This document shows positions 1-14,087 of a stretch of 23,818 nucleotides of DNA, in pieces; position 1 is the first letter of the stretch, and each line of letters opens with the position of its first letter. Location: the IMG/VR virus record IMGVR_UViG_3300030519_000313, positions 1 through 23,818 of that record; one strand, given 5' to 3'. Both the position numbers and the translations under genes were made by a program. The notes beneath the pieces were generated by a model. It was given only the letters and a program-made list of their open reading frames with translations, was not told the origin of the DNA and did not search any database. The DNA comes from a virus.

Positions 1-1104
1 CTATCCCTGTTTCCGATGCCACAAACCTTCGAGCGCCTGGCGCCGATCCTTGCGCCCCACCTCGATGTAACCCCGGGTCGTCTCAAGGTCCTTGTGCCGA
101 AGAATGTCCTGGATCACGAAGGCGTCGACACCCTGCCGGGCTAGGAGGGTGGCACAGGAGCCCCGGAGCCGGTGCGGGGACAGCTTGGGCAGTCCAACCA
201 GCCGCCCGGCCCTCTTGATGGCATAGGTGGCGAAGTGGGCCCAGTGGGGGCGCCATTGCCCCTCGTCGTCCTGGAAAGCCAGCACCCAGGGGCAGAGAGG
301 CATCGCCTTTCGGCTCTCGGCCAAGTCCTGGATGAGGCCCCACAGTTCCGGCGGCACGTCGATGGCAACCGCCTCTCCGCCCTTCGATTTGAGGTCGTCC
401 TGGTCCTCGTCCCATTTGCCCGGAGTGTAGGTCGATCCGTCTGGGGCGAACAGGTCCCACCGCATCTGAAGGGCCTCGCTCTCCCGGAGCCCCATGTAGA
501 GCATCGCCATGACACAGATGATCACCTCGGGGTTGCGGGACTCCCGGACGTGGGCAAGGAAGGGCTCGATCAACTCCTCGGGCAGGACCACCTTGGGTTT
601 CTTCTGGATCCTCTGCTTCTCCACCGCCCAGGTGACCTCGGAGATCAGCCCCTCGGCCAGGGCATAATTCCAGAGGGCCCGGAGGTGGCGGAGCAGGAGG
701 TTGGCGGTCGCCTTGGAGTGGCGCCGGCCAGAGGGCCCGGAGCTGGCCAGGAGCTGCCGGCGAATCTCGGTGATATGGGCGGAGGTCACCTGGTCGGCCG
801 GGACCTTGGCGAATTTCGGGAGGAGATATTTCTCGAAGTCGAACATGGCCCGCTGAATGTGCAGCTCGGAGAAGGTCTCGGCGTTGTCCTCTTTCCAGAA
901 CGCCACCAGCTCCCCGACGGTTGGGGCCGGCGCATCACCCTCCCGCTTCCCATCCATGGCATTGAGGAGGGCCCGAAGCCACTTCCTGGCGCCCTCGGGG
1001 GTCCGCTTGCCGGTGGACCGATGGATTTCCTGGCCCTTGTGCCGGATGCGGCAATGGTAGACATCCCCGACCTTCTTCAGGTTGTTCGCCCATCCATCTG
1101 CCAT
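1..1104 (-). CDS. int: Tyrosine recombinase (phage integrase)
   Basis: Site-specific recombinase of the tyrosine family, expected to integrate and excise the phage DNA at an att site. The 367-residue protein has an N-terminal arm-binding region (about 1-55), a SAM-like core-binding domain (about 62-160) and a C-terminal catalytic domain. The catalytic set is visible: R207 in GLRESEAL, probable K241, H311 and R314 in SPHRLRG, H337 in LRHKDL and the nucleophile Y346 in TTRGYI. The reading frame stays open upstream for 49 codons, but that extension is low-complexity (many W, S and F) and runs through the divergent promoter region. I chose the ATG at 1104, preceded by a GGGGTGAT ribosome site. 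The gene points out of the window and its stop is the first base, so the attachment site probably lies just outside. Confident of family; the start is likely. Confidence 0.95.
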   Translation of the reverse strand: MADGWANNLKKVGDVYHCRIRHKGQEIHRSTGKRTPEGARKWLRALLNAMDGKREGDAPAPTVGELVAFWKEDNAETFSELHIQRAMFDFEKYLLPKFAKVPADQVTSAHITEIRRQLLASSGPSGRRHSKATANLLLRHLRALWNYALAEGLISEVTWAVEKQRIQKKPKVVLPEELIEPFLAHVRESRNPEVIICVMAMLYMGLRESEALQMRWDLFAPDGSTYTPGKWDEDQDDLKSKGGEAVAIDVPPELWGLIQDLAESRKAMPLCPWVLAFQDDEGQWRPHWAHFATYAIKRAGRLVGLPKLSPHRLRGSCATLLARQGVDAFVIQDILRHKDLETTRGYIEVGRKDRRQALEGLWHRKQG

Positions 1105-1159
1105 GGCATCACCCCAAACGCCACATTTTACGACAGAAGAAGAAATATTTCGTCGCATC

Positions 1160-1189
1160 TTGATTTTCAGCCCAAATGGGCCGATACTT
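1160..1189 (+). promoter_or_regulatory. Predicted promoter with operator-like inverted repeat, upstream of the plus-strand cassette
   Basis: A sigma70-like promoter can be read as TTGATT (1160-1165), a 17-bp spacer, and GATACT (1183-1188). It lies 24 bases before the ribosome site and start of the first plus-strand gene. Inside the spacer sits GCCCAAATGGGC (1170-1181), a 5-bp inverted repeat with a 2-base centre, a typical place for a repressor site. The same string followed by GATACTT recurs at 4924-4942. Promoter calling by eye is uncertain; the repeated string is a direct observation. Confidence 0.5.
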
Positions 1190-1211
1190 CTTGCATCGAA
1201 GGAGAACGACC

Positions 1212-1436
1212 ATGACCAATACCACAACCAAAGCCAAGGGCGCCTGGGCACTCACGAACCCCTCCCTGGCCCAGCAGGAAGCCATCCTGGCGATCAGCGC
1301 AGGGCGGACCCCCAAGTCAGGCATCGCCACGATCAAGGGGCTCCTGAAGCGGGGGCTCATTGCCGCCACCGGCACCGGCTACAAGCTGACCCCCGACGGT
1401 ACGACCAGCGCGGTCCTGATCAAAAAGTGGTGCTAG
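1212..1436 (+). CDS. Small phage protein, possible winged-helix fold
   Basis: A 74-residue protein that opens the plus-strand cassette, divergent from the integrase. The start at 1212 follows a good AAGGAG site at 1199-1204. Its body reads like a small winged helix-turn-helix: a helix with QQEAILAIS, a second helix TIKGLLKRGLI, then a strand-turn-strand stretch TGTGYKLTPDG resembling a wing. That fold would suggest DNA binding or transcription control, but no precise family is recognised. An in-frame ATG at 1176 would add 12 residues but has no ribosome site and would overlap the predicted promoter. Function is inference only. Confidence 0.7.
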   Translation: MTNTTTKAKGAWALTNPSLAQQEAILAISAGRTPKSGIATIKGLLKRGLIAATGTGYKLTPDGTTSAVLIKKWC

Positions 1437-1447
1437 ACCGAACCACC

Positions 1448-1475
1448 CCCAGGCGCCCCGGAAGGGGCCTTTGGG
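1448..1475 (+). terminator. GNRA-capped hairpin between two small genes
   Basis: GCCCC (1455-1459), a GGAA loop and GGGGC (1464-1468) form a strong stem, with outer CCCA (1448-1451) pairing with TGGG (1472-1475). It lies in the 55-base gap between two plus-strand genes. No clear U-run follows, so it may be an attenuator or RNA-stability element rather than a full terminator. A near copy of the core occurs at 6200-6213. Confidence 0.45.
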
Positions 1476-1491
1476 CGTGAAGGGACACATC

Positions 1492-1647
1492 ATGAGCCAC
1501 GGTTACGACCTCACCGCCTCCCGCTTCTACGACCGCCGGCAGTCCCGGATCCTGCCTCGCATCCTCTATATCCCCGTGGGGATGCTGGTCGAGATGCTGG
1601 CCACCAAGGCGATGGCCCGCGTGTCGTCCTGGCTCAAGGCGGCCTAA
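1492..1647 (+). CDS. Hypothetical 51-residue protein
   Basis: Short reading frame starting at ATG 1492 after a GAAGGGA ribosome site and ending in TAA at 1645-1647. The N-terminal third is polar and aromatic (several R and Y). Residues about 20-42 form a moderately hydrophobic, possibly amphipathic helix (ILPRILYIPVGMLVEML), followed by a basic tail. No family is recognised. It could be a peripheral membrane peptide or a small regulatory protein. Support is the ribosome site, the position in a run of same-strand phage genes and a clean stop just before the next ribosome site. Confidence 0.5.
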   Translation: MSHGYDLTASRFYDRRQSRILPRILYIPVGMLVEMLATKAMARVSSWLKAA

Positions 1648-1679
1648 GCCAATCCCTCACCACCATCAAGGAGAACGAT

Positions 1680-1910
1680 TTGAGATTGATCTGTTGGGTT
1701 TCCGGCGGCTGCAAGTGGAGGGTGATCAAGGAGGAATGGGTCGAGCCCACCAAGGACCGGCCGTTCAGCCAGCTCGTCCGCCATCACGAATGCGTCATGT
1801 GTCTGGACACCAAGGCCACCCTGACCAGCCCCCGGTCCAGCGAGTCCCTGTTCTGCGTCCCGGACGAATTCAATTCGGACATCCATGAAGTTGCGACGGC
1901 GAAGCCATGA
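1680..1910 (+). CDS. Small cysteine-containing protein, possible zinc ribbon
   Basis: A 76-residue protein starting at TTG 1680, chosen because AAGGAG lies 8 bases upstream and no ATG is placed as well. Cysteines C5 and C11 near the start and C38/C41 in HHECVMC could form a zinc-binding pair of knuckles, with neighbouring histidines. The stop overlaps the methyltransferase start by four bases (ATGA), implying translational coupling with that enzyme. Zinc-ribbon proteins of this size are common in phage accessory cassettes, but I do not recognise the family and zinc binding is inference. Confidence 0.65.
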   Translation: MRLICWVSGGCKWRVIKEEWVEPTKDRPFSQLVRHHECVMCLDTKATLTSPRSSESLFCVPDEFNSDIHEVATAKP

Positions 1911-2827
1911 GGTGCATCGACCTTTTCGCCGGGGCAGGGGGATTCAGCGAGGCCGCTAGGATGGCCGGGCATGAGGTGGTCTGGGCTGGAAACCACTGGC
2001 CGTCTGCCGTGGCCGTCCATCGAGAGAACCACCCGGACACCATCCATCTGTGCCAAGACCTCCACCAAGCCGACTGGACCTCTCTCCCGGATTACGACCT
2101 TCTCCTGGCCTCTCCATGCTGCCAGGGGCATTCCCGGGCCCGGGGCAAGGACCGGCCCCATCACGACGCTGCCCGGTCAACAGCCTGGGCCGTTGTCTCC
2201 GCTGCCGAGTGTCACCGCCCTCGGTCCGTGGTCATCGAAAACGTCCCGGAATTCGCAAAGTGGGCCCTGTTCCCAGCTTGGGCCGCTGCCATGGAAGCCC
2301 TGGGCTACACCCTTCGGACCGAAGTTCTGGACGCCCAAGAATTCGGGGTGCCCCAGCAACGGAAGCGTCTGTTCATCGTCGGCCAGCTCCAAGGAAAGGC
2401 ATTCGACTTCCGGGGGCTGGGTGGCCAAGAGTCCATGCCGATCAGTGGCGCCCTTGACCTGGACAGCGGGTCGTGGTCATCCTGGCGCCCCGAGAACCGC
2501 AAGAAGGTTCTGGTCCCGGCGACCATGGCGCGGATCCAGGCGGCCCTGAAGCGTCACGGCGATGCCCCGTTCTGGATTCCCTACTTCGGGAGCAACGTGA
2601 ACGGCTGGCCCTTGACGGCCCCCATCTGGACGATCACCACCAGGGACCGCTACGCCATCATCCATGGAGACCGGTTCCGGTTCCTGACCGTGGACGAGTG
2701 CCGGGCGGCCATGGGGTTCCCCGCCGGCTACCGCCTGACCGGAAAGGTCCACGTCGACAAGATGCTGCTCGGGAACGCCGTGTGCCCGCCAGTCGCCGCC
2801 CAGCTCCTTCGCCGCCTCGCGGTCTGA
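1907..2827 (+). CDS. C5-cytosine-specific DNA methyltransferase
   Basis: Transfers a methyl group from S-adenosylmethionine to carbon 5 of cytosine in DNA. The 306-residue protein shows the ordered family motifs: motif I DLFAGAGGFSEA (5-16), motif IV ASPCCQGHS (68-76), motif VI ENV (111-113), motif VIII QQRKRLF (150-156) and C-terminal motif X GNAVCPPVA. In motif IV the usual PCQ is written CCQ, so C72 aligns with the catalytic cysteine and the normally preceding proline is a cysteine. The target-recognition region between motifs VIII and X is short (about 160-270). No restriction endonuclease is adjacent, so this looks like an orphan phage enzyme, probably protecting phage DNA from host restriction. 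The start overlaps the upstream small gene. Family is certain; target sequence unknown. Confidence 0.95.
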   Translation: MRCIDLFAGAGGFSEAARMAGHEVVWAGNHWPSAVAVHRENHPDTIHLCQDLHQADWTSLPDYDLLLASPCCQGHSRARGKDRPHHDAARSTAWAVVSAAECHRPRSVVIENVPEFAKWALFPAWAAAMEALGYTLRTEVLDAQEFGVPQQRKRLFIVGQLQGKAFDFRGLGGQESMPISGALDLDSGSWSSWRPENRKKVLVPATMARIQAALKRHGDAPFWIPYFGSNVNGWPLTAPIWTITTRDRYAIIHGDRFRFLTVDECRAAMGFPAGYRLTGKVHVDKMLLGNAVCPPVAAQLLRRLAV

Positions 2828-2845
2828 CCTTTTCGAGGAGATACT

Positions 2846-3574
2846 ATGCCGATCAATTCCAAAGGCGGTTATTCCGGTCGCGGACCGACCCCGACCGGTG
2901 CGAAGCCTCCAAAAACCAGGGGAACCATGGCCCATCGCGTCATCGACACCTTGACCCCGCTGGAGCGGATCAGTTGCGGGATGCCGCTCCCTGGTGACCT
3001 GGAATGGATCCAGGGGCTCCAGGCCAAGGTCGCCGAACTGGACGCCCTCATGGATTCCGTCACCCCCTCCAAGGACGCCGAGGGGATCATCCTCAACGCC
3101 AAGACCAGGCTGGGCGGGAAGCCGACCGACAGCCTGATCCAGCTCTGCTATGAGCGCAACGGGGAGCAGGACAGGCTCCGGGCCCGGGTTGCAGAATTGG
3201 AGGACTCCCTGAGTAAAAGCCAGGAGGAAGCTGCATGTCACGAGATAGGTGCGACCGAGAGACGCAAGGAACGGGACATCCTCCGGGCCCGGGTCGCCGA
3301 GCTGGAGACCATCGCAAGAGCCGACCTGGAGACTTTCAGTCGGCTCCATGTCCGGGTAGCGGAGATGGATGCGGAGAGCAGACGCAATAGGCAGGGGTTT
3401 GAATTCCATGCCGGCCGGGCGGACCGCCTTCGGGTCGTCCTGGTGCGGATCGCCAAGCCCCTGGGCGACGGTTGCGGGTGCGGCGGCCCCGTGTGCCAAT
3501 GCGAAAGCCCCGAAGCTGTACGAGCCGAGCTGGATGCCCGCATCGACCTCGCAACCGAAGCCATCAAGGGCTGA
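2846..3574 (+). CDS. Coiled-coil protein of unknown function
   Basis: A 242-residue protein starting at 2846 behind AGGAGATACT. Heptad-like segments with recurrent RARVAELE runs (about 55-70, 110-130 and 145-175) predict a long parallel coiled coil. The C-terminal part carries a cysteine cluster CGCGGPVCQC (about 210-220), which might bind metal or form disulphides. Similar coiled-coil genes with repeated RVAELE motifs occur in phage early regions without a defined role. An alternative ATG at 2927 also has a purine-rich site. Function unknown; the gene itself is well supported by length and ribosome site. Confidence 0.75.
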   Translation: MPINSKGGYSGRGPTPTGAKPPKTRGTMAHRVIDTLTPLERISCGMPLPGDLEWIQGLQAKVAELDALMDSVTPSKDAEGIILNAKTRLGGKPTDSLIQLCYERNGEQDRLRARVAELEDSLSKSQEEAACHEIGATERRKERDILRARVAELETIARADLETFSRLHVRVAEMDAESRRNRQGFEFHAGRADRLRVVLVRIAKPLGDGCGCGGPVCQCESPEAVRAELDARIDLATEAIKG

Positions 3575-3592
3575 TGCCCAGAAGGAGGTCCC

Positions 3593-3862
3593 TTGCGGAT
3601 CTGGAAATATCCCCTCGAAGTTGCCGACCAGCAAAACCTCAAGCTCCCCACCGGGGCGAAGATCCTAACCGTCCAGGCTCAGGATGGGAATCCCTGCCTC
3701 TGGGCACTGGTGGACGAAACCCTTCCCAAGTTCAGGTTTGAAATCCATGCCATCGCCATCTATGGCACCGGCACCCCCATCCCAGACGAGCCGGGAGACT
3801 ATATCGCCACCTTTCAGATAATGGGCGGCGAGCTGGTTTTCCATGCCTTTGAATACAAGTAG
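3593..3862 (+). CDS. Small phage protein of the DUF7352 type
   Basis: An 89-residue protein starting at TTG 3593 after a near-perfect AAGGAGG. The pattern is that of a widespread small phage family, as I recall DUF7352: an opening IWKYPLEV, then LPTGAKILTVQ, then PCLWALVD, then IYGTGTPI and a closing YIATFQ with LVFHAFE. The family has no established biochemical role; the predicted fold is all-beta. It is followed by a 79-base gap holding two identical palindromes. Family assignment is from memory of the sequence pattern. Confidence 0.8.
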   Translation: MRIWKYPLEVADQQNLKLPTGAKILTVQAQDGNPCLWALVDETLPKFRFEIHAIAIYGTGTPIPDEPGDYIATFQIMGGELVFHAFEYK

Positions 3863-3872
3863 CACTCGTATC

Positions 3873-3923
3873 CATGACCTCCCAGGTCATGTCGAACCCC
3901 ATTTCATGACCTCCCAGGTCATG
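3873..3923. promoter_or_regulatory. Two identical 19-bp palindromes, 32 bp apart
   Basis: CATGACCTCCCAGGTCATG occurs at 3873-3891 and again at 3905-3923. Each is a perfect 8-bp inverted repeat around CCC. Spacing of 32 bp is about three helical turns, which suits a dimeric regulator binding two sites on one face. The RNA could also form two tight hairpins before the ribosome site of the next gene. They fill most of the gap between the stop at 3862 and the start at 3942. I saw no further copy in the window. Confidence 0.6.
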
Positions 3924-3941
3924 CCACCTGACAGGAACCCC

Positions 3942-4172
3942 ATGAACCAACCCAAGCCTGACCCCTGCGAATACGTCCGCCACACCTACTCCGTCCCGGC
4001 CAGGGTCGGGATGCACGTCACTTTCAATCGAGCCCCGGGCGTCATCAAGGGCGGGTCGAACTATGTGTCGGTCCTCCTGGCCGGCAGGAAGACCCCCGTC
4101 AACATCCACCCGACCGACCCGGACCTCATCTACCTCAATGACGACGGCTCCCGGGCCTTTCCCAAGGAATAG
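3942..4172 (+). CDS. Small phage protein, unknown function
   Basis: A 76-residue protein with the pattern CEYVRHTYSVPARVGMHVTF followed by a GVIKGG turn and a NIHPTD-LIYL ending. I recall similar short proteins in many phages, where the VPARVG/PGVI/HPT layout suggests a small SH3-like beta barrel, with no proven function. The ATG at 3942 was chosen because the family homology begins a few residues later; ribosome pairing is weak (CAGGAA). An earlier in-frame ATG at 3906 lies inside the second palindrome. The palindromes suggest this gene and those downstream are regulated at this point. Confidence 0.7.
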   Translation: MNQPKPDPCEYVRHTYSVPARVGMHVTFNRAPGVIKGGSNYVSVLLAGRKTPVNIHPTDPDLIYLNDDGSRAFPKE

Positions 4173-4176
4173 AATC

Positions 4177-4905
4177 ATGAACCTTCTGAAACATACCTTT
4201 TTCGTCACCGACACCGAAACCACCGGCCTGGATCCGGTCGAGCACCGCGCCGTGGAAGTGGCCGGCGTCCTCGTGGTCAACGGCCAGATCACCATGGCCA
4301 TGACCACCTATCTCAACCCCGGGCGCCCCATCCCTGCCGTTGCGTCGGGCGTCCACGGGCTGGTCGATGCCGACGTGCAGGACGCCCCCACCCTGGATGA
4401 GACGATACCCTTCCTGCGGGGCTTCGCGTTCGATGCCGACGCCATCGTGGCGCATAACGCCCCGTTCGACCGGTCCATCTTGCCGGGCATGATCGAAAAG
4501 CCCTGGCTGGACACCCTGCGGCTGGCGCGTCGGCTCTACCCCGGCTTCGCCAGCCACCAGAACCAGGCCCTCCGTTACGAGCTGGGCCTCCGCTGCCCCG
4601 AGGCCGACGGGATGCCGGCCCACCGCGCCCTGGCCGACGCCTACGTCACGGCCAGGCTCCTGGTCCACATGCTGGTCGAGGCCGAGGAGGCGGGGATGCC
4701 CGGCACCGTGCCGGAGCTGATCGACGCCATCGAGGCGCCGATGCTTCTGACCACCTGTGGCTTCGGGAAGCACCGGGGCACCCCCTGGGCGGAGGTGCCC
4801 AAGGACTACCTCCAATGGATGACCAAGGGGATGCCCGACATGGACGATGACCTGAGATTCACCGTCCGCCACGTCCTGGCCAACCACTACAAAAGCGGGC
4901 AGTAA
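4177..4905 (+). CDS. DEDDh 3'-5' exonuclease, exonuclease X-like
   Basis: A 242-residue nuclease of the DnaQ superfamily, expected to degrade single-stranded DNA from the 3' end with two metal ions. The five catalytic residues are visible: D12 and E14 in VTDTETTGLDP, D98 in HNAPFDRS, and H149 plus D154 in PAHRALADAYV, the DEDDh form. After the catalytic domain (about 1-180), residues 185-240 hold the sequence CGFGKHRGTPWAEVPKDYLQW. This resembles the C-terminal domain of exonuclease X proteins rather than a polymerase epsilon subunit. The start at 4177 is five bases after the previous stop. It lies near the methyltransferase and away from the helicase, so a role in recombination, repair or host DNA degradation is more likely than replicative proofreading. 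Confidence 0.9.
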   Translation: MNLLKHTFFVTDTETTGLDPVEHRAVEVAGVLVVNGQITMAMTTYLNPGRPIPAVASGVHGLVDADVQDAPTLDETIPFLRGFAFDADAIVAHNAPFDRSILPGMIEKPWLDTLRLARRLYPGFASHQNQALRYELGLRCPEADGMPAHRALADAYVTARLLVHMLVEAEEAGMPGTVPELIDAIEAPMLLTTCGFGKHRGTPWAEVPKDYLQWMTKGMPDMDDDLRFTVRHVLANHYKSGQ

Positions 4906-4923
4906 TATGAACGGGAAGATTCG

Positions 4924-4942
4924 GCCCAAATGGGCGATACTT
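4924..4942 (+). promoter_or_regulatory. Second copy of the GCCCAAATGGGC/GATACTT motif
   Basis: GCCCAAATGGGC (4924-4935) followed directly by GATACTT (4936-4942) repeats the element in the integrase-cassette promoter (1170-1189), with one base less between the two parts. It sits 15 bases before the chosen start of a helix-turn-helix gene. No convincing -35 box is seen here, so it may be an operator with a weak promoter or a chance resemblance. Confidence 0.4.
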
Positions 4943-4957
4943 GGGCTGGAGAAGCTC

Positions 4958-5329
4958 ATGGCGAGGACAGGACGGCCCATCACGATCCCCGGCCTATGGG
5001 GGCCCCTGGCGGCCCGCGTCGGTGGCGTCCAGGCATTGGCGCGGGTCCTGGGCGTCCCGGAGCGGTCCTTGCGGAACTGGGCGACCAACAACCGGTCCAT
5101 GGATGCCATCGTGGCCTCCAAGGTTGCTGACTTGCTGGAGGGCGAGAGCCTTCCGGTCTACAGTCACCCGGGCCTGGTGACCTACCACCTGGCGTCGGCC
5201 CCGGAGGGCTGGATCCAATGGCCGAAGCTGGTCGGTGGATGGTCGGCGCGGTCGGCATGGAAGGGAGACCCGACCGAGTTGGTTTCGGGCGACTCCAGGG
5301 CGGCCAGGGACCACGGGTGGCCGTGGTGA
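4958..5329 (+). CDS. Helix-turn-helix DNA-binding protein, putative regulator
   Basis: A 123-residue protein with an N-terminal helix-turn-helix of XRE-like character: GGVQALARVLGVPERSLRNWATNNRSM (about 23-49), where ALARVLG forms the first helix and ERSLRNWAT the recognition helix. The C-terminal half is tryptophan-rich and of unknown function. The ATG at 4958 has a good GGAG site 7-10 bases upstream. An ATG at 4907 in the same frame would add 17 residues but has poor ribosome pairing and would make the motif at 4924-4942 coding. The shared motif before this gene and before the first cassette gene makes it a candidate for binding that motif. Fold is likely; role is inference. Confidence 0.75.
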   Translation: MARTGRPITIPGLWGPLAARVGGVQALARVLGVPERSLRNWATNNRSMDAIVASKVADLLEGESLPVYSHPGLVTYHLASAPEGWIQWPKLVGGWSARSAWKGDPTELVSGDSRAARDHGWPW

Positions 5330-5340
5330 AGGGAGATCAC

Positions 5341-5562
5341 ATGAGCGAATGGCAACCCATCGCCACCGCGCCGAAGGATGGGGGCATGATCCTGATTGCC
5401 TCCGATGGGCAAGCGGCGGTTATGCGTTGGAATCTGGCTTGTCAATGGTGGTCGCTGGTGGTGACCGGCGATGGAGCCAGCAGTTCCCGATGGGAAGACA
5501 TGGAATGGGACGAACGGGCATGTTGGATGCCCATTCCTACTGGGTTCGAGGTGAAACCATGA
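5341..5562 (+). CDS. DUF551-like small phage protein
   Basis: A 73-residue protein starting at 5341 after AAGGGAG. It begins EWQPIATAPKDGG and ends WMPIPTGFE, the pattern of the DUF551-like phage proteins (WQPI-TAPKDG near the start and a W-MP-P motif near the end). The family is widespread in temperate phages and its function is unknown. The stop overlaps the next start by four bases (ATGA), so the two are probably translated together. Confidence 0.8.
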   Translation: MSEWQPIATAPKDGGMILIASDGQAAVMRWNLACQWWSLVVTGDGASSSRWEDMEWDERACWMPIPTGFEVKP

Positions 5563-5687
5563 AGGTATCGGACCTCATCAAGGCCCTTTCGCATTGCCGC
5601 CAGGACGCGGAGGTCTACCACGGCGAGGAAAGGGACGCTGCCCGAGCCCATCTCCGCAACTGCCGCGTTCAAGGCGCTGAAAACTAA
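5559..5687 (+). CDS. Short protein of the MKVSDLI type
   Basis: A 42-residue frame coupled to the upstream gene by an ATGA overlap. The N terminus, VSDLIKALSHCRQDAEV, matches the opening of a small phage family whose members start with a helix of the form V-DL-ALL-C-PDAEV. The usual members are longer, so this one may be shortened. A minus-strand gene at 15960-16190 opens in the same way (TVADLQAILAKCQPEDQV), giving two probable relatives in the window. Function unknown. Confidence 0.6.
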   Translation: MKVSDLIKALSHCRQDAEVYHGEERDAARAHLRNCRVQGAEN

Positions 5688-5702
5688 CCGAGGAGTTCCT
5701 CC

Positions 5703-5822
5703 ATGTCAACTGCCCGGGTGCTGTTCCAGAAGAACCTTCAACGGTTTTTCCGCGAAACCTACCCTGACAAGGGATTCAGAGTCACCCAATGGTCCTATTT
5801 TTGGGAACACATGGGTTTATAG
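5703..5822 (+). CDS. Hypothetical 39-residue protein
   Basis: A very short frame beginning at ATG 5703 behind GAGGAG, ending in TAG at 5820-5822. It is basic and aromatic (F, Y, W and R rich), with no recognised motif. The clear ribosome site and fit within a same-strand gene run support it; length alone does not. The overlapping frame from 5789 is an alternative extension of the next gene, which I consider less likely because it lacks a ribosome site. Confidence 0.45.
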   Translation: MSTARVLFQKNLQRFFRETYPDKGFRVTQWSYFWEHMGL

Positions 5823-5869
5823 TCACCAATTGTCCGTTCTGTGCAGCGGACCCTTCCCAAGGAGTGAAA

Positions 5870-6160
5870 ATGAAAGTTGCTAAAATCCCGACAGTGAAAG
5901 TAGGTTGGGTATTCGCTCACGACACCCACGGTGTGGTTCGGTTCACGAAAGAAGCCGAGAAGCTCCAGATGAGCAATCCCGATCCCCGCCGGATCTTTTT
6001 GGAAACGGAAACAGGCATTCTTCCCCTCCGCGCAAGGGATATTTGCCCCATCAACAATCTGTCTGCTTTCTGCATTCAAATCCAAGAGGAACAGTCCCGC
6101 CGTGAAGATCTGGAGGAAACCGGTGTCATGACCGGTGTCAAGGACGATCCCAAGGAGTAG
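5870..6160 (+). CDS. Hypothetical protein, last gene of the plus-strand cassette
   Basis: A 96-residue protein with ATG at 5870 after AAGGAG. The first 65 residues look like a small beta-rich domain (VGWVFAHDTHGVVRFT, then IFLETETGILPLRARDI). The final 25 are charged and likely disordered. No family is recognised. An upstream in-frame start at 5789 would add 27 residues including NCPFC but overlaps the 39-residue frame and has no ribosome site. The gene is slightly less GC-rich than its neighbours and is followed directly by hairpins, so it closes the transcription unit. Confidence 0.6.
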   Translation: MKVAKIPTVKVGWVFAHDTHGVVRFTKEAEKLQMSNPDPRRIFLETETGILPLRARDICPINNLSAFCIQIQEEQSRREDLEETGVMTGVKDDPKE

Positions 6161-6191
6161 CGCCAAACCATCAGCATCAAGCGACAATAGT

Positions 6192-6245
6192 CTACCGCCG
6201 CCCCGAAAGGGGCTTTGGCGGTGTAGAACCACCCCCGAGAGGGGG
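6192..6245 (+). terminator. Tandem GNRA-loop hairpins after the plus-strand cassette
   Basis: The first hairpin runs 6192-6226: ACCGCC (6194-6199) pairs with GGCGGT (6217-6222), and GCCCC (6200-6204) pairs with GGGGC (6209-6213) around a GAAA loop, with a TTT bulge. A second, CCCCC-GAGA-GGGGG, lies at 6232-6245. They begin 31 bases after the last stop codon. Neither has a long U-run, but the second is followed by a short T-rich stretch (CTGATCTTTTCG). Likely transcript ends or a processing barrier. Confidence 0.6.
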
Positions 6246-6325
6246 AACGGTCACTGATCTTTTCGACCTACCTCAAACTGAAATCTAGCAACAAGACGTT
6301 GCGAATGTCCGTTCTCGTCGGACCC

Positions 6326-6343
6326 AGGCCCCACCGGGGGCCT
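6326..6343. terminator. Hairpin between convergent genes
   Basis: AGGCCCC (6326-6332) and GGGGCCT (6337-6343) form a perfect 7-bp stem around ACCG. It lies five bases before the stop of the minus-strand gene at 6348 and after the plus-strand hairpins, so it could end transcription from both sides. T-runs are weak. Confidence 0.5.
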
Positions 6344-6347
6344 TTCG

Positions 6348-6656
6348 CTATGCCTGTTTCTGGGCAGCGTCGGTGGCGCGATTTTGATGGGCCCTGGCCC
6401 GGAGCCATTTGGTATTGGGAGGCAGGGCAGGGACGGACCTTCGCCGATCTACGAAGGTTGGAGTGGTCGGGACCGCATCAATCCCCATCGCCTCCTCCAT
6501 CCGCTCCATGGACTGGCTGGCGTCAAGGTAGAGGGCCCGAGCTACCCTGGAGAGGATCGGCGTCCCGCATTCCTCCAGGCGCTCGGCCAGAGAGAGAGAG
6601 AGGAGCGTGATCCGCTCGACCGACTTAAATATTTCATCATCCATGCGCGTATCCAC
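6348..6656 (-). CDS. Hypothetical 102-residue protein
   Basis: Begins at GTG 6656 after AAAGGTGGG; an internal ATG at 6644 is possible. The first 60 residues form alpha-helices with an amphipathic pattern (FKSVERITLLSLSLAERLEECG and a second helix with ARALYLDASQSMERMEEAM). The last 40 are basic and proline-rich. No family recognised. It is divergent from the ribbon-helix-helix gene across an AT-rich spacer containing an inverted repeat, the layout of a regulatory pair or of a small toxin-antitoxin-like module, but nothing in the protein proves either. Opposite-strand frames in this stretch look less protein-like. Confidence 0.5.
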   Translation of the reverse strand: MDTRMDDEIFKSVERITLLSLSLAERLEECGTPILSRVARALYLDASQSMERMEEAMGIDAVPTTPTFVDRRRSVPALPPNTKWLRARAHQNRATDAAQKQA

Positions 6657-6697
6657 TTAGCCCACCTTTAACTTTTCAAGAGTCTACACGTTCCAGA

Positions 6698-6721
6698 AAT
6701 AAATAAGGTGCCATATTTATT
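6698..6721. promoter_or_regulatory. Operator-like inverted repeat in a divergent spacer
   Basis: AATAAATA (6698-6705) and TATTTATT (6714-6721) form a perfect 8-bp inverted repeat around an 8-base centre. It lies in the 104-base AT-rich gap between the divergent genes starting at 6656 and 6761. The ribbon-helix-helix protein encoded beside it is an obvious candidate binder (autoregulation is inference). The AT-rich halves could also contain promoter boxes for either direction. Confidence 0.5.
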
Positions 6722-6760
6722 GTGATAGCAAGATCGCCGACGGAATGAGATTCATTATGA

Positions 6761-6961
6761 ATGCCTATTCGCCGACACCCAGGACGCCCCCGCAGAGACG
6801 AGCCGCCGGCCCCCTCCCGAAGGAGGGTTATTCGGATCCCGGTCGACCTAGACGAAGAACTGGCCCAGGAAGCCGAGGCCCGGGGATACAGTTATCAAGC
6901 TGCGATCAGGACGGCAATCGTGATTCTACTTGAGTCATGGCGAAAAGAAAGCGAATCTTAA
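6761..6961 (+). CDS. Ribbon-helix-helix (Arc/CopG-like) DNA-binding protein
   Basis: A 66-residue protein. After a basic N-terminal tail with an AT-hook-like GRPRR (8-12), a short strand RVIRIPVDLD (22-31) is followed by two helices, EELAQEAEARG and YQAAIRTAIVILLESWRKE. This is the strand-helix-helix layout of Arc/CopG/MetJ repressors, which bind operators as dimers of dimers. The ATG at 6761 was chosen so that the strand is complete; the ribosome site is weak (GGAATGAG). The gene ends one base before the stop of the minus-strand late block, so it is convergent with it. Likely a local repressor or an antitoxin-like protein. Confidence 0.7.
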   Translation: MPIRRHPGRPRRDEPPAPSRRRVIRIPVDLDEELAQEAEARGYSYQAAIRTAIVILLESWRKESES

Positions 6962-6962
6962 T

Positions 6963-7148
6963 TCAGGGCCGGGGCATGTTGATTTGCTCCCGTGGGTCGC
7001 GGGTGGCAAAATACGCTGCATAGGCCCGGTCGGACTCGCGCAGGACGACAGAGAGCCGGGCCCGTTTCCGCTCGTCGCTGGTGGGCTCGATCACCTGTCC
7101 TTGCGGCTCTTTCCGGGGTTCCCGGCGGGGCTTGTCCTTGGACTTCAT
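6963..7148 (-). CDS. Hypothetical 61-residue basic protein, last gene of the minus-strand block
   Basis: Starts at ATG 7148, four bases after the upstream stop (7153-7155), suggesting coupled translation. The sequence is highly charged and probably disordered for the first 30 residues (many K, R, E and P), followed by a short helix RARLSVVLRESDRAYAAYF. No recognised family. It is the final gene of the long leftward transcription unit, ending one base from the convergent ribbon-helix-helix gene. Confidence 0.5.
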   Translation of the reverse strand: MKSKDKPRREPRKEPQGQVIEPTSDERKRARLSVVLRESDRAYAAYFATRDPREQINMPRP

Positions 7149-7152
7149 AGAG

Positions 7153-7578
7153 CTATGCCCCAATGTAGGCGGCAAAGTTGATCTGACTGGTGGCGCCCAG
7201 GGCGTTGGTGGCGTCGTTGTTTTGGAACTTGACGGTCACGAACCGGCCATTGGGGCGCACGAAGAAGCTCTGGGCCCCGGTCGCCGGGGCAATGTTGGTG
7301 AAGACGGCCTGGCTCAACCCGGAGGCGCCGGCCTGGCCGAGGACCCGGGCCGGCATGGTGATGTCGTTGGCGATGTCGGTGCCGTAGGCCGTGACGGTGT
7401 TCAGGGCGGTTTCAGGGGCGGCGGGGTCCACCGTGACCTGGACCAGGGTGTAGGCGTCCCAGGTCTCGCCCAGATCGAAGGAGACGGAAGTGGTGGCGCT
7501 GGCAGCGAGGCTGGCGATGGATCCACTCACGCGGCCGTCCTGCCCTCCCTGAAGTCCTCTGCGGCAATTTACGGGCAT
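7153..7578 (-). CDS. Hypothetical protein, candidate virion component
   Basis: A 141-residue protein starting at ATG 7578, two bases after the MuF-like stop. It is rich in A, T, S, V and N, with alternating hydrophobic residues (TTSVSFDLGETWDAYTLVQV, FFVRPNGRFVTVKFQNND) that predict beta strands and a jelly-roll-like sandwich. That composition, and its place after portal and MuF-like genes, suggest a head decoration, fibre or other virion protein. It is far too small for a usual HK97-fold major capsid protein and no known family is recognised. Confidence 0.65.
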   Translation of the reverse strand: MPVNCRRGLQGGQDGRVSGSIASLAASATTSVSFDLGETWDAYTLVQVTVDPAAPETALNTVTAYGTDIANDITMPARVLGQAGASGLSQAVFTNIAPATGAQSFFVRPNGRFVTVKFQNNDATNALGATSQINFAAYIGA

Positions 7579-7580
7579 GG

Positions 7581-8684
7581 TCAACTCGCTTTCTTGACTT
7601 TGTCGGCATAGGCCGAGAGGTGCTTGGCAAACTGGGCGGGGCGGAGAGAGAGGTGGCAGGCACAGTTGGGATGCGCCGGACAGCATGGCCAATACATCTC
7701 GGCCTTGTCCCGCTTGTGCCCGGCCCTCTTGTCCCAGGGATGGGCAGACCTCCCGATGTTGTTCTTGCCCACCCAGACATCGGTGTCGCCATTGCGCTTG
7801 GGATCATCGGCGGCCACGACCTTGAGCTGTTTCTTGGCCTGGGCGAGGCAGTAGGGGCAAGCATTGGGGGCGGCGATCCAGGTTGCAATCCAGCCGTCGT
7901 CGGGGTTCACGCTCGCCAGGGCGCCATTCTGGACGGCCATGGCGGATTCGGTCAGGGCGATCCGGCGCCAGTCCCGGTTGAGCTGGCCGAAGCGTTCCAG
8001 GAGCCGACGCTCCAGCTTCCCCGGGCCCTCCTCGGCCTGTTTGGACGTGACCAGCTCGGTCACCAAGGCATGGCGGGTCGAGGACTGGAGATGGGTGGCG
8101 TATTCCATGCCCCGGGCCTTGGTCCACTCCATGGAAGCGACCTGGGAAGGCTCCACGATGTCCATGGCCTTCATCCAGTCGGGCAGCACTGGAGGCGCCT
8201 TGATGGCTTGGCCGACCTTGAACATCAGGTGCGACCGCATGGCGAGGCCCTGGGCGGCAGCCTCGGCGGATCCGGCGGGGGTCAGGGCGTCAGTGAGCTT
8301 GGTGATGACCTTGGTCCAGCCGTCCATCAGGTGGACCGGATCCTGGCCCGTCTTGAATAGGTCCATCACGCGGCCCCAGCCGGAGACGTTGGCGTTGAGC
8401 GGCATGAACCCGGCCTTGACCAGGAGGCGGGGCTGGACGTTCCGGCCCAGGACACCAGAAAGCATTCCCACCAGGAACTTCTGGCCCCAGCCATAGAAGG
8501 CCATTTCGATGGCGTTGATGGCCGGGTCGGGGTGCGGGCCCCAGAACGGACGCTCGGCTTCGGTCTGCTTTCCGGTGGGCGGGCCTGGCTCCCGGCGGCG
8601 GGTGATCGCCTTCAGGATGGGGCGGCCGATGCGCGGGTCCGGGCTATGGCCGAAACGGGGGTCCAGATCGGGGGCGGGGATCAT
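7581..8684 (-). CDS. MuF-like minor head / head morphogenesis protein
   Basis: A 367-residue protein of the phage Mu gpF-like (SPP1 gp7-like) family, which acts with the portal during procapsid assembly. The signature lies in the C-terminal half: RRIALTESAMAVQNGA (240-255), then WIAAPNACPYC (269-279), HPWDKR and HPNCACHLSL (338-347). C276, C279, C341 and C343 could form a zinc site. The N-terminal 200 residues are divergent and mainly helical. Its start overlaps the portal stop by four bases. The portal-MuF adjacency is the standard order in many siphoviruses and supports the call. Confidence 0.85.
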   Translation of the reverse strand: MIPAPDLDPRFGHSPDPRIGRPILKAITRRREPGPPTGKQTEAERPFWGPHPDPAINAIEMAFYGWGQKFLVGMLSGVLGRNVQPRLLVKAGFMPLNANVSGWGRVMDLFKTGQDPVHLMDGWTKVITKLTDALTPAGSAEAAAQGLAMRSHLMFKVGQAIKAPPVLPDWMKAMDIVEPSQVASMEWTKARGMEYATHLQSSTRHALVTELVTSKQAEEGPGKLERRLLERFGQLNRDWRRIALTESAMAVQNGALASVNPDDGWIATWIAAPNACPYCLAQAKKQLKVVAADDPKRNGDTDVWVGKNNIGRSAHPWDKRAGHKRDKAEMYWPCCPAHPNCACHLSLRPAQFAKHLSAYADKVKKAS

Positions 8685-10543
8685 TCATCCTCCGATGTCC
8701 CGCTCAAGGCGTGAAGCCGATCCGAAACCTCTCCGCCGAAGCCTCCAGGAGGGCCCGCAGGAGCGTCCGGGTCGCCTTCGCCGCCATTCTCTCCACCATC
8801 GCCGCCGTCTTCACCTTCGGGGCCACCTTCGGGCTGCTGGGCGGCCTGGGGGTTGAGTGCATTCTGGACGGCCGCCTGCATGGACGGATTGAGCGGGGTG
8901 ATGCCCACCTGGGGGTTCGGGAATTCGGGCAGCCCACCCCAGCACTTCCGGGCCTCGTCATAGGTCAGGATGGCCTGATACCGAGAGAATTCGGCAGCGA
9001 GGACGCCAGGGTCGGCCGGCAGGGCGCCGATGGACGGAACCGGATGAGGACTCATGCCCAGGGATGCCCGATGCTCGTCAATCGTGGACATCCGGGCCCG
9101 CTCCGCCGCCTTCCACTTCTCATCCTCGGCCACCAGGCCGGTGAAGTTGAAGCGGACCCACGGCGCGAACCGGGACACGATGTCGGTGCCCACATACCCA
9201 GCAATGTCACCCAGGAAGGGACGGAGGCCCTTGTCTTTGGCGGCGGCCAGGCGCTCGGAGGTGTCGTCCCCGGACATGCTGGACTTCTCGTCGGAGTAGC
9301 CCGACAGGCCAATTTCCACGGGGTCGATGCCGTAGATGGCACAGGCGATGGCCGTCTGGAGGGAGATCCATTTGGCGAAGGCCATTTCGGAGAACGGGGT
9401 TCCGGTCTGGACGAAGTTGGCGGCCCCTTGCTGGCCCCGGCTCATCATGACCGGCATCCCGAAGTTGTTCCCAGCGCCCCGGATCTTGGCTTGCCACATG
9501 GCGTTGAAGGCTTGCATCTGGGTCTGGTCGTAGTTCCCGCTCATCACCAGGATGCCTCTAGGGATGGCGTTGTTGTCGATGCCTTCGCGGGTGTAGGCCA
9601 CGGCCTGAAGGAAGTTGGAAATGGTCTCGATGCAGCTCTCCATTTCAGAGAGCCCGTAGCCGCACCACTCCAGGTCCGTCTGGGGGTTGCGCTGGAAGAT
9701 GCTGGCCTGTTCCGGGGTGAATTCGATGATCTGACCCGGCTGGGTTTCCTGGATCAGGAAGGAATCGGGGATGTTGCCGGCCGAGTCCGCGTCCTGGTTG
9801 CGAAAGTAGAAGGTCGAGCTGTCCCGCATGAAGAACGAGTCCAGCCCCCGCGACCCGCGAAGGGGGACCAGCTCGGTCGCGCAATGATCGAAGGTCAGGC
9901 CGTCGTTGGTCAGCTTGCGGAGGTAGATCGGGAGGCCCTCCCGCTTGAGCTTCCGGCGTTCCAGGGCGTCGAATTCGCGGCCACCGCAGACCAGGAACTG
10001 GGTCAACCAGCTCATGTAGGCCCGGTGATCATCGCCCAGCTCGGCGTTGGGATCGGCGGCCGATAGGCGCCAGCCCACCGCGTCGTCCTTCATGCTTGGG
10101 TTGGAGAAGGCCATCACCTGGCGGGTTCGGGTCCGATGGATGGCCTGGATGACCTCGATCCGCTTGGCAAGCTGTTTGAGGGCGACGAAGGGGAGGCCCG
10201 GCTTGGGGATGTAGACGCCACCGGAGCCGCCGCCGTAGGAATTCAGGAACGGGGTGACCCGGGCCTTGGGGTCATCGCTGCCCGGGGTCGTGGTCTGGAG
10301 AGCCTTGGCCACCATGCGGCTGGCCACCTTCTCGGCTTGCTGGAGCTGGACCCACTGGGAAACCATCCCGATCAAGTCGGGGTGCGGGTTCTCGTTTCCA
10401 TATGCTTTCTGGACCTCGCGGCCGGCGTCCTGTTGTTCGTCCAGGGGAGCCATGGGGTCATTCGCCACGGATGCGGCTTGGCCCAGGTGCGAGAAGGCGC
10501 CACCGTTGATTGCTGAGAAGGAGAATCCAGAGGTGTCGCTCAC
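8681..10543 (-). CDS. Phage portal protein
   Basis: A 620-residue protein in the portal position, directly after the large terminase and before the MuF-like gene. The portal is the dodecameric ring at one capsid vertex through which DNA is packaged. Recognisable portal-like features are a helical N-terminal region, a central segment with GLSEMESCIETISNFLQ and NNAIPRGILVMSG, then FAKWISLQTAIACAIYGIDPVEIGL, where phage portals typically carry a conserved helix. Residues after about 565 form a low-complexity G/E/D/P tail, unusual in composition and probably disordered. The length is at the upper end for siphovirus portals. It overlaps the terminase stop by four bases. Assignment rests on both context and pattern. 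Confidence 0.85.
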   Translation of the reverse strand: MSDTSGFSFSAINGGAFSHLGQAASVANDPMAPLDEQQDAGREVQKAYGNENPHPDLIGMVSQWVQLQQAEKVASRMVAKALQTTTPGSDDPKARVTPFLNSYGGGSGGVYIPKPGLPFVALKQLAKRIEVIQAIHRTRTRQVMAFSNPSMKDDAVGWRLSAADPNAELGDDHRAYMSWLTQFLVCGGREFDALERRKLKREGLPIYLRKLTNDGLTFDHCATELVPLRGSRGLDSFFMRDSSTFYFRNQDADSAGNIPDSFLIQETQPGQIIEFTPEQASIFQRNPQTDLEWCGYGLSEMESCIETISNFLQAVAYTREGIDNNAIPRGILVMSGNYDQTQMQAFNAMWQAKIRGAGNNFGMPVMMSRGQQGAANFVQTGTPFSEMAFAKWISLQTAIACAIYGIDPVEIGLSGYSDEKSSMSGDDTSERLAAAKDKGLRPFLGDIAGYVGTDIVSRFAPWVRFNFTGLVAEDEKWKAAERARMSTIDEHRASLGMSPHPVPSIGALPADPGVLAAEFSRYQAILTYDEARKCWGGLPEFPNPQVGITPLNPSMQAAVQNALNPQAAQQPEGGPEGEDGGDGGENGGEGDPDAPAGPPGGFGGEVSDRLHALSGTSEDE

Positions 10544-12504
10544 CAGACAACCTCACCAGAGATGGGCGGAATCTCGGTGACGCCCTCGGCTATTTCGCGG
10601 GGGTAATACATGGCGCAAGCTGGGTCGGCGCCCCGACAGGTGAAGTTGTTGGAGGCGCATTTACCTTCCGCAGGGCTGGCTAGCGGGTAGGAGGTGCAGG
10701 ACTCGCAACGGTTGGCGCGGAGGGCGGCCCGCTGGGAGGTGATTTCATCCCAGATACCGGAGGGTTGGATTGGAGTGGTCGGGTCCACGGCCGACGGCGG
10801 CGTGACAGCGGCGGGGGCAGCCCCGACGGGCCCGACCGGGAACCCAGCAGCATCGGCGCCAGCCATGGGCGGACAGCCCCAGGCGTTGCGTCCCATGGTG
10901 CAGAGGTAGGCGCCGATGGCCATGCTGATCACCCGGTCGTCGTGGCAGTTCGGCAGGGCTTCCGGCTTGCCCGTGGGCCCGCGCTGGAAGGTGCTGCACT
11001 CCCGCCAGAAGTTGGGATCCAGGCAGATGAGAGCCTTGGAGCGAATGGCCGTGTCCAGGGCGTCCACGATCATGGGGCGCGTCTTGGCGTCGGTCGGGAA
11101 GCCAGCCCGAAGGAACGAGATGGTGCCCCCCTGGTCATATTCCAGGTGCCGGTAGACCTGGGGATACTGGCTGGTCTCCAGGGTGTTGATGGTGGAGTGG
11201 CCGTGGTTGTTGCGTTCCACCGCGATGCAGGCCCAGTTGAAAAGGCGCCCAGCACCCATGAGAAGGCGCCCGAATTCGATGGGGGTGATGCGGCCGTGGA
11301 TCACACCTACGGCCCGGAGGTCCCGGACCCGGATGATCCAGCCGCAACAGAAGTCGGCCCCGCCCCGCTCGGGATCAGTGACATCGGTCACTCCGGCGTC
11401 CTTGCCTTCGGCGACATCGCAGGAGATCAGGTACTGCTCCCCGGGAATCGGGTTCTCCCAAAGGAACACATGGGCCCGGGGCGACTGGGGCGCCGGCAGC
11501 TTGCGGGCGGACTCCATCATGGCGTTGACGATCTTGGCGTCGAACATCGGGCGGCCGGTGGACAGGAAGGCGCCCAGGAGGGATTCCGGGTATTCCTGGG
11601 CGAACAGGTCGCCCAGATCCTGGCGTTTCTTGCGCCTCCATGCGATTTGTTCCAGGGTCAGACGCTCACGGACCATCAGCTCCACTTCCTCGGCGTCTGG
11701 GGTCTCCCCGACGGGCCAGGGGGCCTTGTATTCGGGGTGGCGGAACCAGGGGTAGTAGACGACGTCGAAGGGAGAATTCCCGGCCAGGGCCTTCATGACG
11801 AGGTGGTAGTAGTCATTCTGGCCGTTGGCCGTGGTCTCCAGCAGGATGTTCCCATCGGCGCCGACGCCCTGGACGTAGCTGGCCATGAAGCTGGGGAAGT
11901 TGCGGTAGAAGGCCGCTTCCGACGCATGTAGGTTGTGGATCACGCCGCCGCGCCAGGGGTGCCCGGCCTCGGTGTCGATGATGAATTTGCTGGGCGGGAA
12001 GACGGCCTGGTCCCCGGGGAAGACAATTTCAAACTCGTATTTCGTGTCGGACTTGAGCTTGAGGGCAGCCTTCAGGGTGGGCGGCAGATGCTCAAAGAAT
12101 AGGCGATAGGTCTCCAGTAGGATTTCGGAGATGCCCTTGTCGTGGGACAGGACGACCGTCACGCGGCCCGGGTTCTTGATCCCGTCCATGAAGTAGAGGG
12201 CCGCGATGAACGTCGAAAAGCCGAGCTGCCGGGGTTTGACGATGGCGTCCCGGATGCCCCGGAACCGGTCTAGGCCCTTCACGGGGGCATGGCGGCGGCG
12301 GAGCGTCCGAAGGTAGTCATGCTGGATCGGGTTGACCGCGAAGGGGAGCAGGGGGCCACCTTCCTTGGTCCTGATCTTGAGGGCAGCCGCCGAGAACAGG
12401 TCCAGCCGCCCGCCCAGATGGTTCAGCTTGGCCTCCCGTGGCATGTCGGCGATGGGCGCCAGGATGGCGCGGGCGCGGGCTTCCTGTTCTTCGAGTAGGC
12501 TCAT
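10540..12504 (-). CDS. terL: Terminase large subunit with cysteine-rich C-terminal extension
   Basis: The ATP-driven packaging motor and headful or site-specific nuclease. In the N-terminal ATPase, a Walker A variant VKPRQLGFST is at 89-98, the Walker B/catalytic stretch HASEAAF at 193-199 and the coupling motif TTANG at 224-228. The RNase H-like nuclease shows D363 in ISCDVAEGKD, E430 in AVERNNHG and D522/D523 in HDDRVISMAIG. The protein (654 residues) is longer than usual. After about 540 comes a proline/alanine linker, then a cysteine cluster at C600, C603, C616, C623 and C630 that looks like a small metal-binding module. The start touches the upstream stop (TAATG). Function is secure; the role of the tail is unknown. 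Confidence 0.93.
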   Translation of the reverse strand: MSLLEEQEARARAILAPIADMPREAKLNHLGGRLDLFSAAALKIRTKEGGPLLPFAVNPIQHDYLRTLRRRHAPVKGLDRFRGIRDAIVKPRQLGFSTFIAALYFMDGIKNPGRVTVVLSHDKGISEILLETYRLFFEHLPPTLKAALKLKSDTKYEFEIVFPGDQAVFPPSKFIIDTEAGHPWRGGVIHNLHASEAAFYRNFPSFMASYVQGVGADGNILLETTANGQNDYYHLVMKALAGNSPFDVVYYPWFRHPEYKAPWPVGETPDAEEVELMVRERLTLEQIAWRRKKRQDLGDLFAQEYPESLLGAFLSTGRPMFDAKIVNAMMESARKLPAPQSPRAHVFLWENPIPGEQYLISCDVAEGKDAGVTDVTDPERGGADFCCGWIIRVRDLRAVGVIHGRITPIEFGRLLMGAGRLFNWACIAVERNNHGHSTINTLETSQYPQVYRHLEYDQGGTISFLRAGFPTDAKTRPMIVDALDTAIRSKALICLDPNFWRECSTFQRGPTGKPEALPNCHDDRVISMAIGAYLCTMGRNAWGCPPMAGADAAGFPVGPVGAAPAAVTPPSAVDPTTPIQPSGIWDEITSQRAALRANRCESCTSYPLASPAEGKCASNNFTCRGADPACAMYYPREIAEGVTEIPPISGEVVW

Positions 12505-12755
12505 TAGGCTTCCTTGGTCCAGAATTCGATGGACCCGTCGGCGCTCGGGATCCCGTATTGAGTGCGGCCCTGGTTATCGAGCCGTTCATAGACCACCAGG
12601 GGCTCGGCCTCGATCTTGTCCCTGAACAGGTGGATGTTGGAGCGGAGGGCCTTGAACCAACTATCGAAGTTGGCGAGTGTCTCCCGCATGGCGACCTTTC
12701 GATGGGCTTTGGCGCGGGCCAGCCGCTGGACCTGAGCTTTCGGGAGGTGGTTCAT
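12504..12755 (-). CDS. Hypothetical protein upstream of the large terminase
   Basis: An 83-residue protein with a basic helical first half (KAQVQRLARAKAHRKVAMRETLANFDSWF) and a more polar beta-like second half (EPLVVYERLDNQGRTQYGIP). Start and stop each overlap neighbouring genes (ATGA upstream, TAATG downstream), so it belongs to the same polycistron as the terminase. Its size and position could suit a small terminase, but the pattern is not convincing and a better candidate lies at 16787-17494. Function unknown. Confidence 0.65.
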   Translation of the reverse strand: MNHLPKAQVQRLARAKAHRKVAMRETLANFDSWFKALRSNIHLFRDKIEAEPLVVYERLDNQGRTQYGIPSADGSIEFWTKEA

Positions 12756-12949
12756 GACTTCACTTCTCTTTTCTCGTTGAATTTTTCAAGGAGGGATTGC
12801 TGGAGAGTGTGAAGGCGCTCCAGGTGGCAATACCTCAAGTCCCTGGGCTGGACGGCGCCCACGATGGTCTCCAGAGCCGTCATGGCGAGGTTCCAGTCCA
12901 GGGTGACCTCGGCCTGGATGGGCAGGATGGCGCGGTGTTCGGACATCAT
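12752..12949 (-). CDS. Hypothetical 65-residue protein
   Basis: Starts at the first of two tandem ATG codons (12949), overlapping the upstream stop in an ATGA. The protein is helical, with a probable helix EVTLDWNLAMTALETIVGAV, the motif LRYCHLERLHTLQQSLLEKF and a charged end. No family recognised. The longer open frame to 13294 is a shadow of the upstream gene and is not used. Its stop overlaps the next start by four bases. Confidence 0.6.
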   Translation of the reverse strand: MMSEHRAILPIQAEVTLDWNLAMTALETIVGAVQPRDLRYCHLERLHTLQQSLLEKFNEKREVKS

Positions 12950-13431
12950 TCCGATGCCCTCCGAAGCTCCAGCTCCAGGCTGGCCAGGAGGTTCCAGGTC
13001 GCTTGGGCCAGGTGGAGACAGCCCGTGTCCTTGTCCCGGGTCTCCCCGCTCCCCAGGGCCAGGAGGTGACGCATTGCGGCATTCATATATCGGGTCTCTC
13101 CGTCGGCGACCGCCTTCCATCCGTTGGGGGAATATTTCCGGGCCCCGATAGTGGAGACGTTGGCGACCTCGGCCAGGGCCATGGCGAAGCCGGAGACACA
13201 GAGCCAGGGCAGCGGTTTCCCGGCGTCCAACTTGGCGCCCGGCTCGTGCTGGCCGATGCCGTTGGGGTCCACGTCCAGGAGGCCGGTGAAGCACGGGGCT
13301 GGGTCCGTCTTGCCACCGATGTCGGCGGGGGCATCGGTGAAGCCGTCCAGGAAGGCCCTCATCTCAACGGGAGGAACCCCAACGAGCAGGGACTTCCATG
13401 AACCGGGCAGAGTGGGCGGAAGAATGGTCAT
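12946..13431 (-). CDS. dATP/dGTP diphosphohydrolase-like protein (DUF5664 type)
   Basis: A 161-residue protein. The conserved stretch begins PGAKLDAGKP and continues with VANVSTIGARKYSPNGWKAV, RYMNAAMRHLLAL and a helix with LHLAQATWNLLASLELELR. This is the pattern I recall for a phage family annotated as dATP/dGTP diphosphohydrolase N-terminal domain, related to MazG-type all-alpha pyrophosphatases, which hydrolyse (d)NTPs to (d)NMPs and pyrophosphate. Residues such as E in LAEVANV and the D/H pairs in MRHLLA and DTGCLHLAQ may bind metal. In some phages such enzymes help make modified or base-substituted DNA, but no adenylosuccinate synthetase-like partner is visible here. The first 70 residues are family-atypical and perhaps linker. 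Substrate is inference. Confidence 0.75.
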   Translation of the reverse strand: MTILPPTLPGSWKSLLVGVPPVEMRAFLDGFTDAPADIGGKTDPAPCFTGLLDVDPNGIGQHEPGAKLDAGKPLPWLCVSGFAMALAEVANVSTIGARKYSPNGWKAVADGETRYMNAAMRHLLALGSGETRDKDTGCLHLAQATWNLLASLELELRRASE

Positions 13432-14020: not shown

Positions 14021-14087
14021 GAGGGGGATGGTGAACAGAACCCGAACGTCATTATTTGACTGTTGGGGGAGGAATTCGACGCGTATC

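Follow-up and report, generated by a model that had tools for sequence, protein, structure and literature searches.

Twin 19-bp palindromes in an intergenic gap of a viral genome fragment: a probable operator pair for an XRE-family regulator

The stretch of DNA analysed here (the window, 23,818 bp) is a 23.8-kb virus fragment with an integrase at its left edge. Its + strand encodes, in this order, a cytosine methyltransferase, a DUF7352 protein (PF24043; phrog_3848; 3593..3862) and, beyond an intergenic gap, a 76-aa protein with no assigned function (3942..4172), a DnaQ-like exonuclease (RNase_T; phrog_192; 4177..4905), which is probably in the same operon as the 76-aa gene, and a helix-turn-helix (HTH) protein with a weak YdaS/Cro-like match (4907..5329). 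The - strand carries packaging genes, a ParB-methyltransferase fusion and DnaB. By direct reading, a probable ribosome binding site and the start codon of the 76-aa gene lie at 3930..3942 on the + strand (AGGA in GACAGGAACCCC-ATG), and similarity of the encoded protein to phrog_16342/phrog_2730 is found from residue 8 onwards. Comparison of the window with annotated phages by blastn gave no match. Searches of viral contigs with the 76-aa and DUF7352 genes returned only one contig (IMGVR 3300028745_000055; L004), which is 100% identical to window positions 1-14251 (14,251 bp); the same searches in 77 genomes of the related bacterial order described below returned nothing, an empty answer that proves little there.

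The gap between the DUF7352 stop codon (3862) and the ATG at 3942 comprises 79 bases, of which 51 are occupied, as originally predicted, by two identical perfect 19-bp palindromes and the bases between them. Both copies are exact. Each consists of 8-bp arms around a CCC centre (CATGACCT-CCC-AGGTCATG; 19-mer CATGACCTCCCAGGTCATG), and the two unstranded features, putative operator sites 1 and 2, are located at 3873..3891 and 3905..3923. The start-to-start distance was measured as 32 bp, again in agreement with the original prediction, so that the pair can be described by a 47-bp twin core (3875..3921, likewise unstranded; TGACCTNNNAGGTCA-17-TGACCTNNNAGGTCA, 32 bp start-to-start). Allowing up to three mismatches, the 19-mer was found in the entire 23,818 bp only at these two sites, 100 dinucleotide shuffles of the window yielded no match (0), and no other pair in the window was recovered when any perfect palindrome repeated at a distance of 18-50 bp was searched for. 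The copies are identical no further than the palindrome itself: the bases flanking the two sites are C..T and T..C, respectively, a pattern more in keeping with selection on the dyad than with the recent duplication of a longer segment. The peptide reading offered earlier is also literally correct: the ATG at 3874 opens a frame for MTSQVMSNPIS whose stop codon (TGA, 3907-3909) overlaps a second ATG (3906), and the latter is in frame with the gene starting at 3942. Since the pair is present in identical form in L004, it is not peculiar to a single contig.

The packaging genes point to the likely host. The terminase of the window is about 50% identical, over nearly its full length, to genes in two Acidobacteriota genomes (G471 and G397), both belonging to one order of which 77 genomes were examined, and the prophages in these two genomes also hold homologues of the portal, head and ParB-methyltransferase genes of the window. 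As judged from gene similarity, these relatives suggest this order of soil-type bacteria as the likely host of the virus. No twin palindromes were detected in four related prophage pieces.

The 19-mer itself is found well beyond this virus. It occurs exactly in 38 bacterial genome contigs, compared with about two expected from an estimate based on composition, and in 20 of these 38 loci the start of an MmyB-like XRE regulator gene lies within approximately 100 bp of the palindrome (21 MmyB-like genes were found across all 38 loci, 20 of them at the palindrome). The MmyB-like ligand-binding domain (PF17765) was confirmed in all five representatives scanned from the 20-locus set. The 19-mer is present as a single copy in each of the 38 loci and likewise in all seven whole genomes that were checked. 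Within the phage-related order, PF17765 scored above cut-off in 5 of the 77 genomes; only one of the 77 (G660) contains a perfect ATGACCTNNNAGGTCAT, which is its single palindrome of this kind and precedes its MmyB-like open frame by 344 bp. Two others (G576 and G690) show 15 of 16 and 13 of 16 matching positions near their MmyB-like genes. An order-wide scan around a Variovorax genome recovered the perfect palindrome in the centre genome only, so that perfect copies are scarce even in groups in which this type of regulator is frequent. Given its reuse at MmyB-like genes, including its occurrence near them in the phage-related order, the 19-mer very probably serves bacteria as the binding site of a regulator.

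Compared with the putative operators of these MmyB-like (MltR, PF17765) XRE regulators (CCATGACCTnnnAGGTCATGG), the 19-bp core of the window sites, including the CCC centre, is identical (20 loci), and the operator core CATGACCTnnnAGGTCATG is present in both window sites. These putative operators, which accompany MmyB-like genes in the phage-related order of Acidobacteriota as well, are however usually single sites with an outer C..G pair (present in 17 of the 20) and an adjoining regulator gene. None of these features applies to the window, where one side of site 1 is the only position to carry an outer C..G base, and no match to an MmyB-like gene was found in the window, in the unrelated viral contig L003 described below or in the related prophage pieces. 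In several genomes (L007, L025, L026, L031, L039 and L040), the same 19-mer lies just upstream of a gene resembling ATP-synthase subunit c.

The closest counterparts of the pair as a whole were found with a twin search pattern (TGACCT-N4-GGTCA twice, with 8-30 bp in between, i.e. 23 allowed spacings). Among 396 Acidobacteriota genomes only three matched (G522, G410 and G576), all of them from the phage-related order, which by a reading of the list accounts for roughly one in ten of the genomes sampled. In G522 and G410 the spacing is exactly 32 bp and the twins are located upstream of homologous XRE genes, whereas the twin in G576 has a 23-bp spacing and lies at an MmyB-like promoter. The G522 pair is situated between a serine recombinase gene and a divergent XRE gene (115 aa); the G410 locus is apparently decayed, with a frameshift in its XRE gene and no recombinase called next to the pair. 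The same search in 195 Myxococcota genomes matched only G001, again with a 32-bp spacing; here the pair is flanked by a homologue of the G522 XRE gene and, divergent from it, a serine recombinase gene of the G522 type. A second myxococcal locus (G002), which by reading has a 32-bp spacing and one degenerate arm, likewise lies between genes for an XRE protein and a divergent serine recombinase. A large serine recombinase in divergent orientation thus accompanies three of the four XRE loci with 32-bp spacing (G522, G410, G001 and G002).

The 47-bp twin core of the window is common to the XRE promoters of G522, G410 and G001, where it is exact, and of G002, with one degenerate arm. Loop sequences vary from one of these loci to the next, so that what they have in common is the half-sites and the spacing. 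The window has two TGACCT-N3-AGGTCA dyads 32 bp apart (start-to-start), as have the putative operator pairs of the XRE/serine-recombinase elements, and the half-sites TGACCT/AGGTCA, the 32-bp spacing and a CCA before the first site all agree between these loci and the window. The 17-bp spacer of the window shows a weak resemblance to the spacers of the XRE loci (P about 0.04). In contrast to these loci, in which the pair precedes the XRE gene, the window lacks this placement: its pair lies in a gap between the co-directional DUF7352 and 76-aa genes, no XRE homologue of the G522/G001 type was found in the window, and a relic of an XRE element was sought in the flanks of the pair without success.

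Paired dyads are also found in other viruses. Single perfect palindromes of this type occurred in 6 viral contigs compared with 11 for a reversed control, so that single palindromes are not enriched in viral contigs. Several copies in one viral contig were seen only in this virus and in L003, an unrelated contig that contains ten related palindromes in five tandem units of approximately 98 bp (6388-6862), spaced 32-33 bp apart and lying as an array between two copies of TAAATAGAGAGTAG; the last unit has 25 nt exactly in common with site 1 of the window. The guess, raised by L003, of a planctomycete repeat family found no support in a genome scan. In a relaxed twin search, paired TGACC-N5-GGTCA dyads proved to be common in phages. 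Twins of this type with a 31-bp spacing were present in 11 viral contigs (L127, L129, L139, L146, L148, L157, L169, L170, L179, L181 and L182), mostly with a -35-like TTGAC(A/G) hexamer in the spacer, and look like a separate family of promoter operators. In the operator pairs of phage repressors of the lambdoid type, two or more dyads are bound by a dimeric repressor, and both in these and in the 31-bp viral group the dyads are placed about three turns apart, as in the window. The window differs from these systems in that its spacer lacks a -35-like hexamer, the outer bases are different and a repressor gene was not seen. Since paired dyads are common in phages, including the 31-bp group, their placement three turns apart is a recurring design. 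Two further, mutually related viral contigs carry tandem TGACCTAAATGGTCA arrays with a period of 29 bp (L043, 3800-4075; L046, 3432-3734); the array in L046 follows an ORF (2631-3041) resembling DnaA domain IV and is possibly a replication-initiator array.

From these sequence comparisons, the palindromes probably serve as paired DNA operators of a dimeric XRE-family regulator (lambda-repressor-like HTH). Reuse of both the exact site and the exact spacing at promoters of XRE regulators elsewhere lends good support to the original suggestion that the sites are two targets of a dimeric regulator. Proteins of the XRE family typically recognise palindromic sites as dimers and control their own expression (PMC12565409). 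One XRE dimer would occupy each 19-bp dyad, and as 32 bp correspond to about three turns of B-DNA, both dimers would lie on the same face of the helix and be able to touch each other; in the bound state they would control transcription entering the 76-aa, exonuclease and HTH genes. We infer protein binding at this locus, an XRE dimer as the binder, repression, and a promoter or a roadblock within the gap. No sigma-70-like promoter was found in the gap by a scan that serves GC-rich hosts poorly, and the pair is located between two co-directional genes and not in a divergent promoter region. With respect to the binder, the HTH protein encoded at 4907-5329 is a possible but unsupported candidate, and no link of the sites to this protein or to a ribbon-helix-helix protein (6761-6961) was found in the window. 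A reasonable candidate is the repressor of the phage itself, because in the G397 prophage a CI-like HTH gene sits beside the integrase, in a region that is absent from the window. A TGACCT-type motif for XRE regulators was not present in the literature searched, which gives palindromic XRE sites generally.

Among the alternatives, RNA hairpins that act at the 3' end of the upstream transcript or in the downstream leader, as processing, stability or attenuation elements, are unlikely, although part of the evidence suits them. A folding energy of -9.4 kcal/mol was obtained for each palindrome, the 96-nt region is more stably folded than shuffled sequences (z -2.3), the two copies can also pair with each other, and the position, 11 nt past the stop codon and 18 nt before the start codon, is suitable for hairpins. 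The original proposal of two hairpins controlling the next gene is physically feasible, but there is neither a U-tract nor a terminator-like match at the palindromes, and an Rfam search gave no match. In 15 distinct related sites the inner TGACC/GGTCA letters are fixed and covariation does not exceed that of shuffles, a comparison biased by the choice of the sites by their letters. Moreover, a hairpin needs neither identical arms nor identical spacing, and at the related loci the pair is located upstream of a regulator gene, in three of them within a divergent promoter region.

It is quite improbable that the palindromes are a mobile or amplified repeat of the REP type, or the decayed copy of a promoter of an integrative element, with no present regulatory role. 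The ten related palindromes in 98-bp tandem units of L003, with 25 nt exactly matching site 1, are consistent with amplification, and G410 demonstrates that XRE/twin loci can decay. REP-like repeats, however, have many dispersed copies, whereas the 23.8-kb record contains just two, both with exact arms; the 19-mer occurs once per genome locus (38) and once per whole genome (7 checked), unlike REP families, and the flanks of the pair show no further similarity to XRE genes.

A duplication of a small upstream ORF, whose ATG-containing units would specify a leader peptide (MTSQVM...) with translational coupling to the following gene, is highly improbable: the 11-codon frame (3874-3909) does overlap the next ATG and the second unit does share the frame of the gene at 3942, but no Shine-Dalgarno sequence precedes 3874 or 3906 whereas a good one precedes 3942, similarity to the 76-aa protein family begins only at residue 8 counted from 3942, the equivalent frames in G522 and G410 mostly run into stop codons (ATG ACC TAA, ATG ACC TAG), the identity of the copies ends at the palindrome edges, and MTSQVM is simply the spelling of the palindrome, so that this earlier idea is not supported.

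An operator pair for an XRE-family regulator would give an otherwise anonymous intergenic repeat a testable role as an operator. It also suggests a sequence rule for a set of little-studied XRE regulators of mobile elements, namely TGACCT-N3-AGGTCA, with a twin at 32 bp, and the 19-mer provides a likely operator core for MmyB-like regulators, which we did not find stated in the literature searched. A more specific idea, which we consider rather unlikely, is that the phage carries the operator pair of the repressor of a resident integrative element (of the XRE/serine recombinase type) in the host order, with immunity or titration as the consequence. If so, the repressor of the element would switch off early genes of the phage, resulting in immunity between elements, or alternatively the phage sites would titrate the repressor and thereby induce the element. 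A shared operator pair would then represent a concrete case of cross-talk between a phage and an integrative element in Acidobacteriota, in which little is known about phage regulation.

Several other features of the window and of related sequences were observed. The ParB-like domain encoded at 18761-20140 is fused to an N6/N4 DNA methyltransferase, an arrangement kept in the G471 and G397 prophages, and within a putative replication protein (23254-23349) three 24-bp repeats (CCCCCATTTCGGGGT...) spell PEMG repeats. In G397 the terminase gene (G397:C24:202116-205244; L092, 7117-10245) contains an intein-like insertion, with two homologous parts approximately 1.1 kb apart and both within one open frame of 1077 aa; similarly, the terminase gene of L046 (6209-8326) includes an internal stretch resembling an intein.
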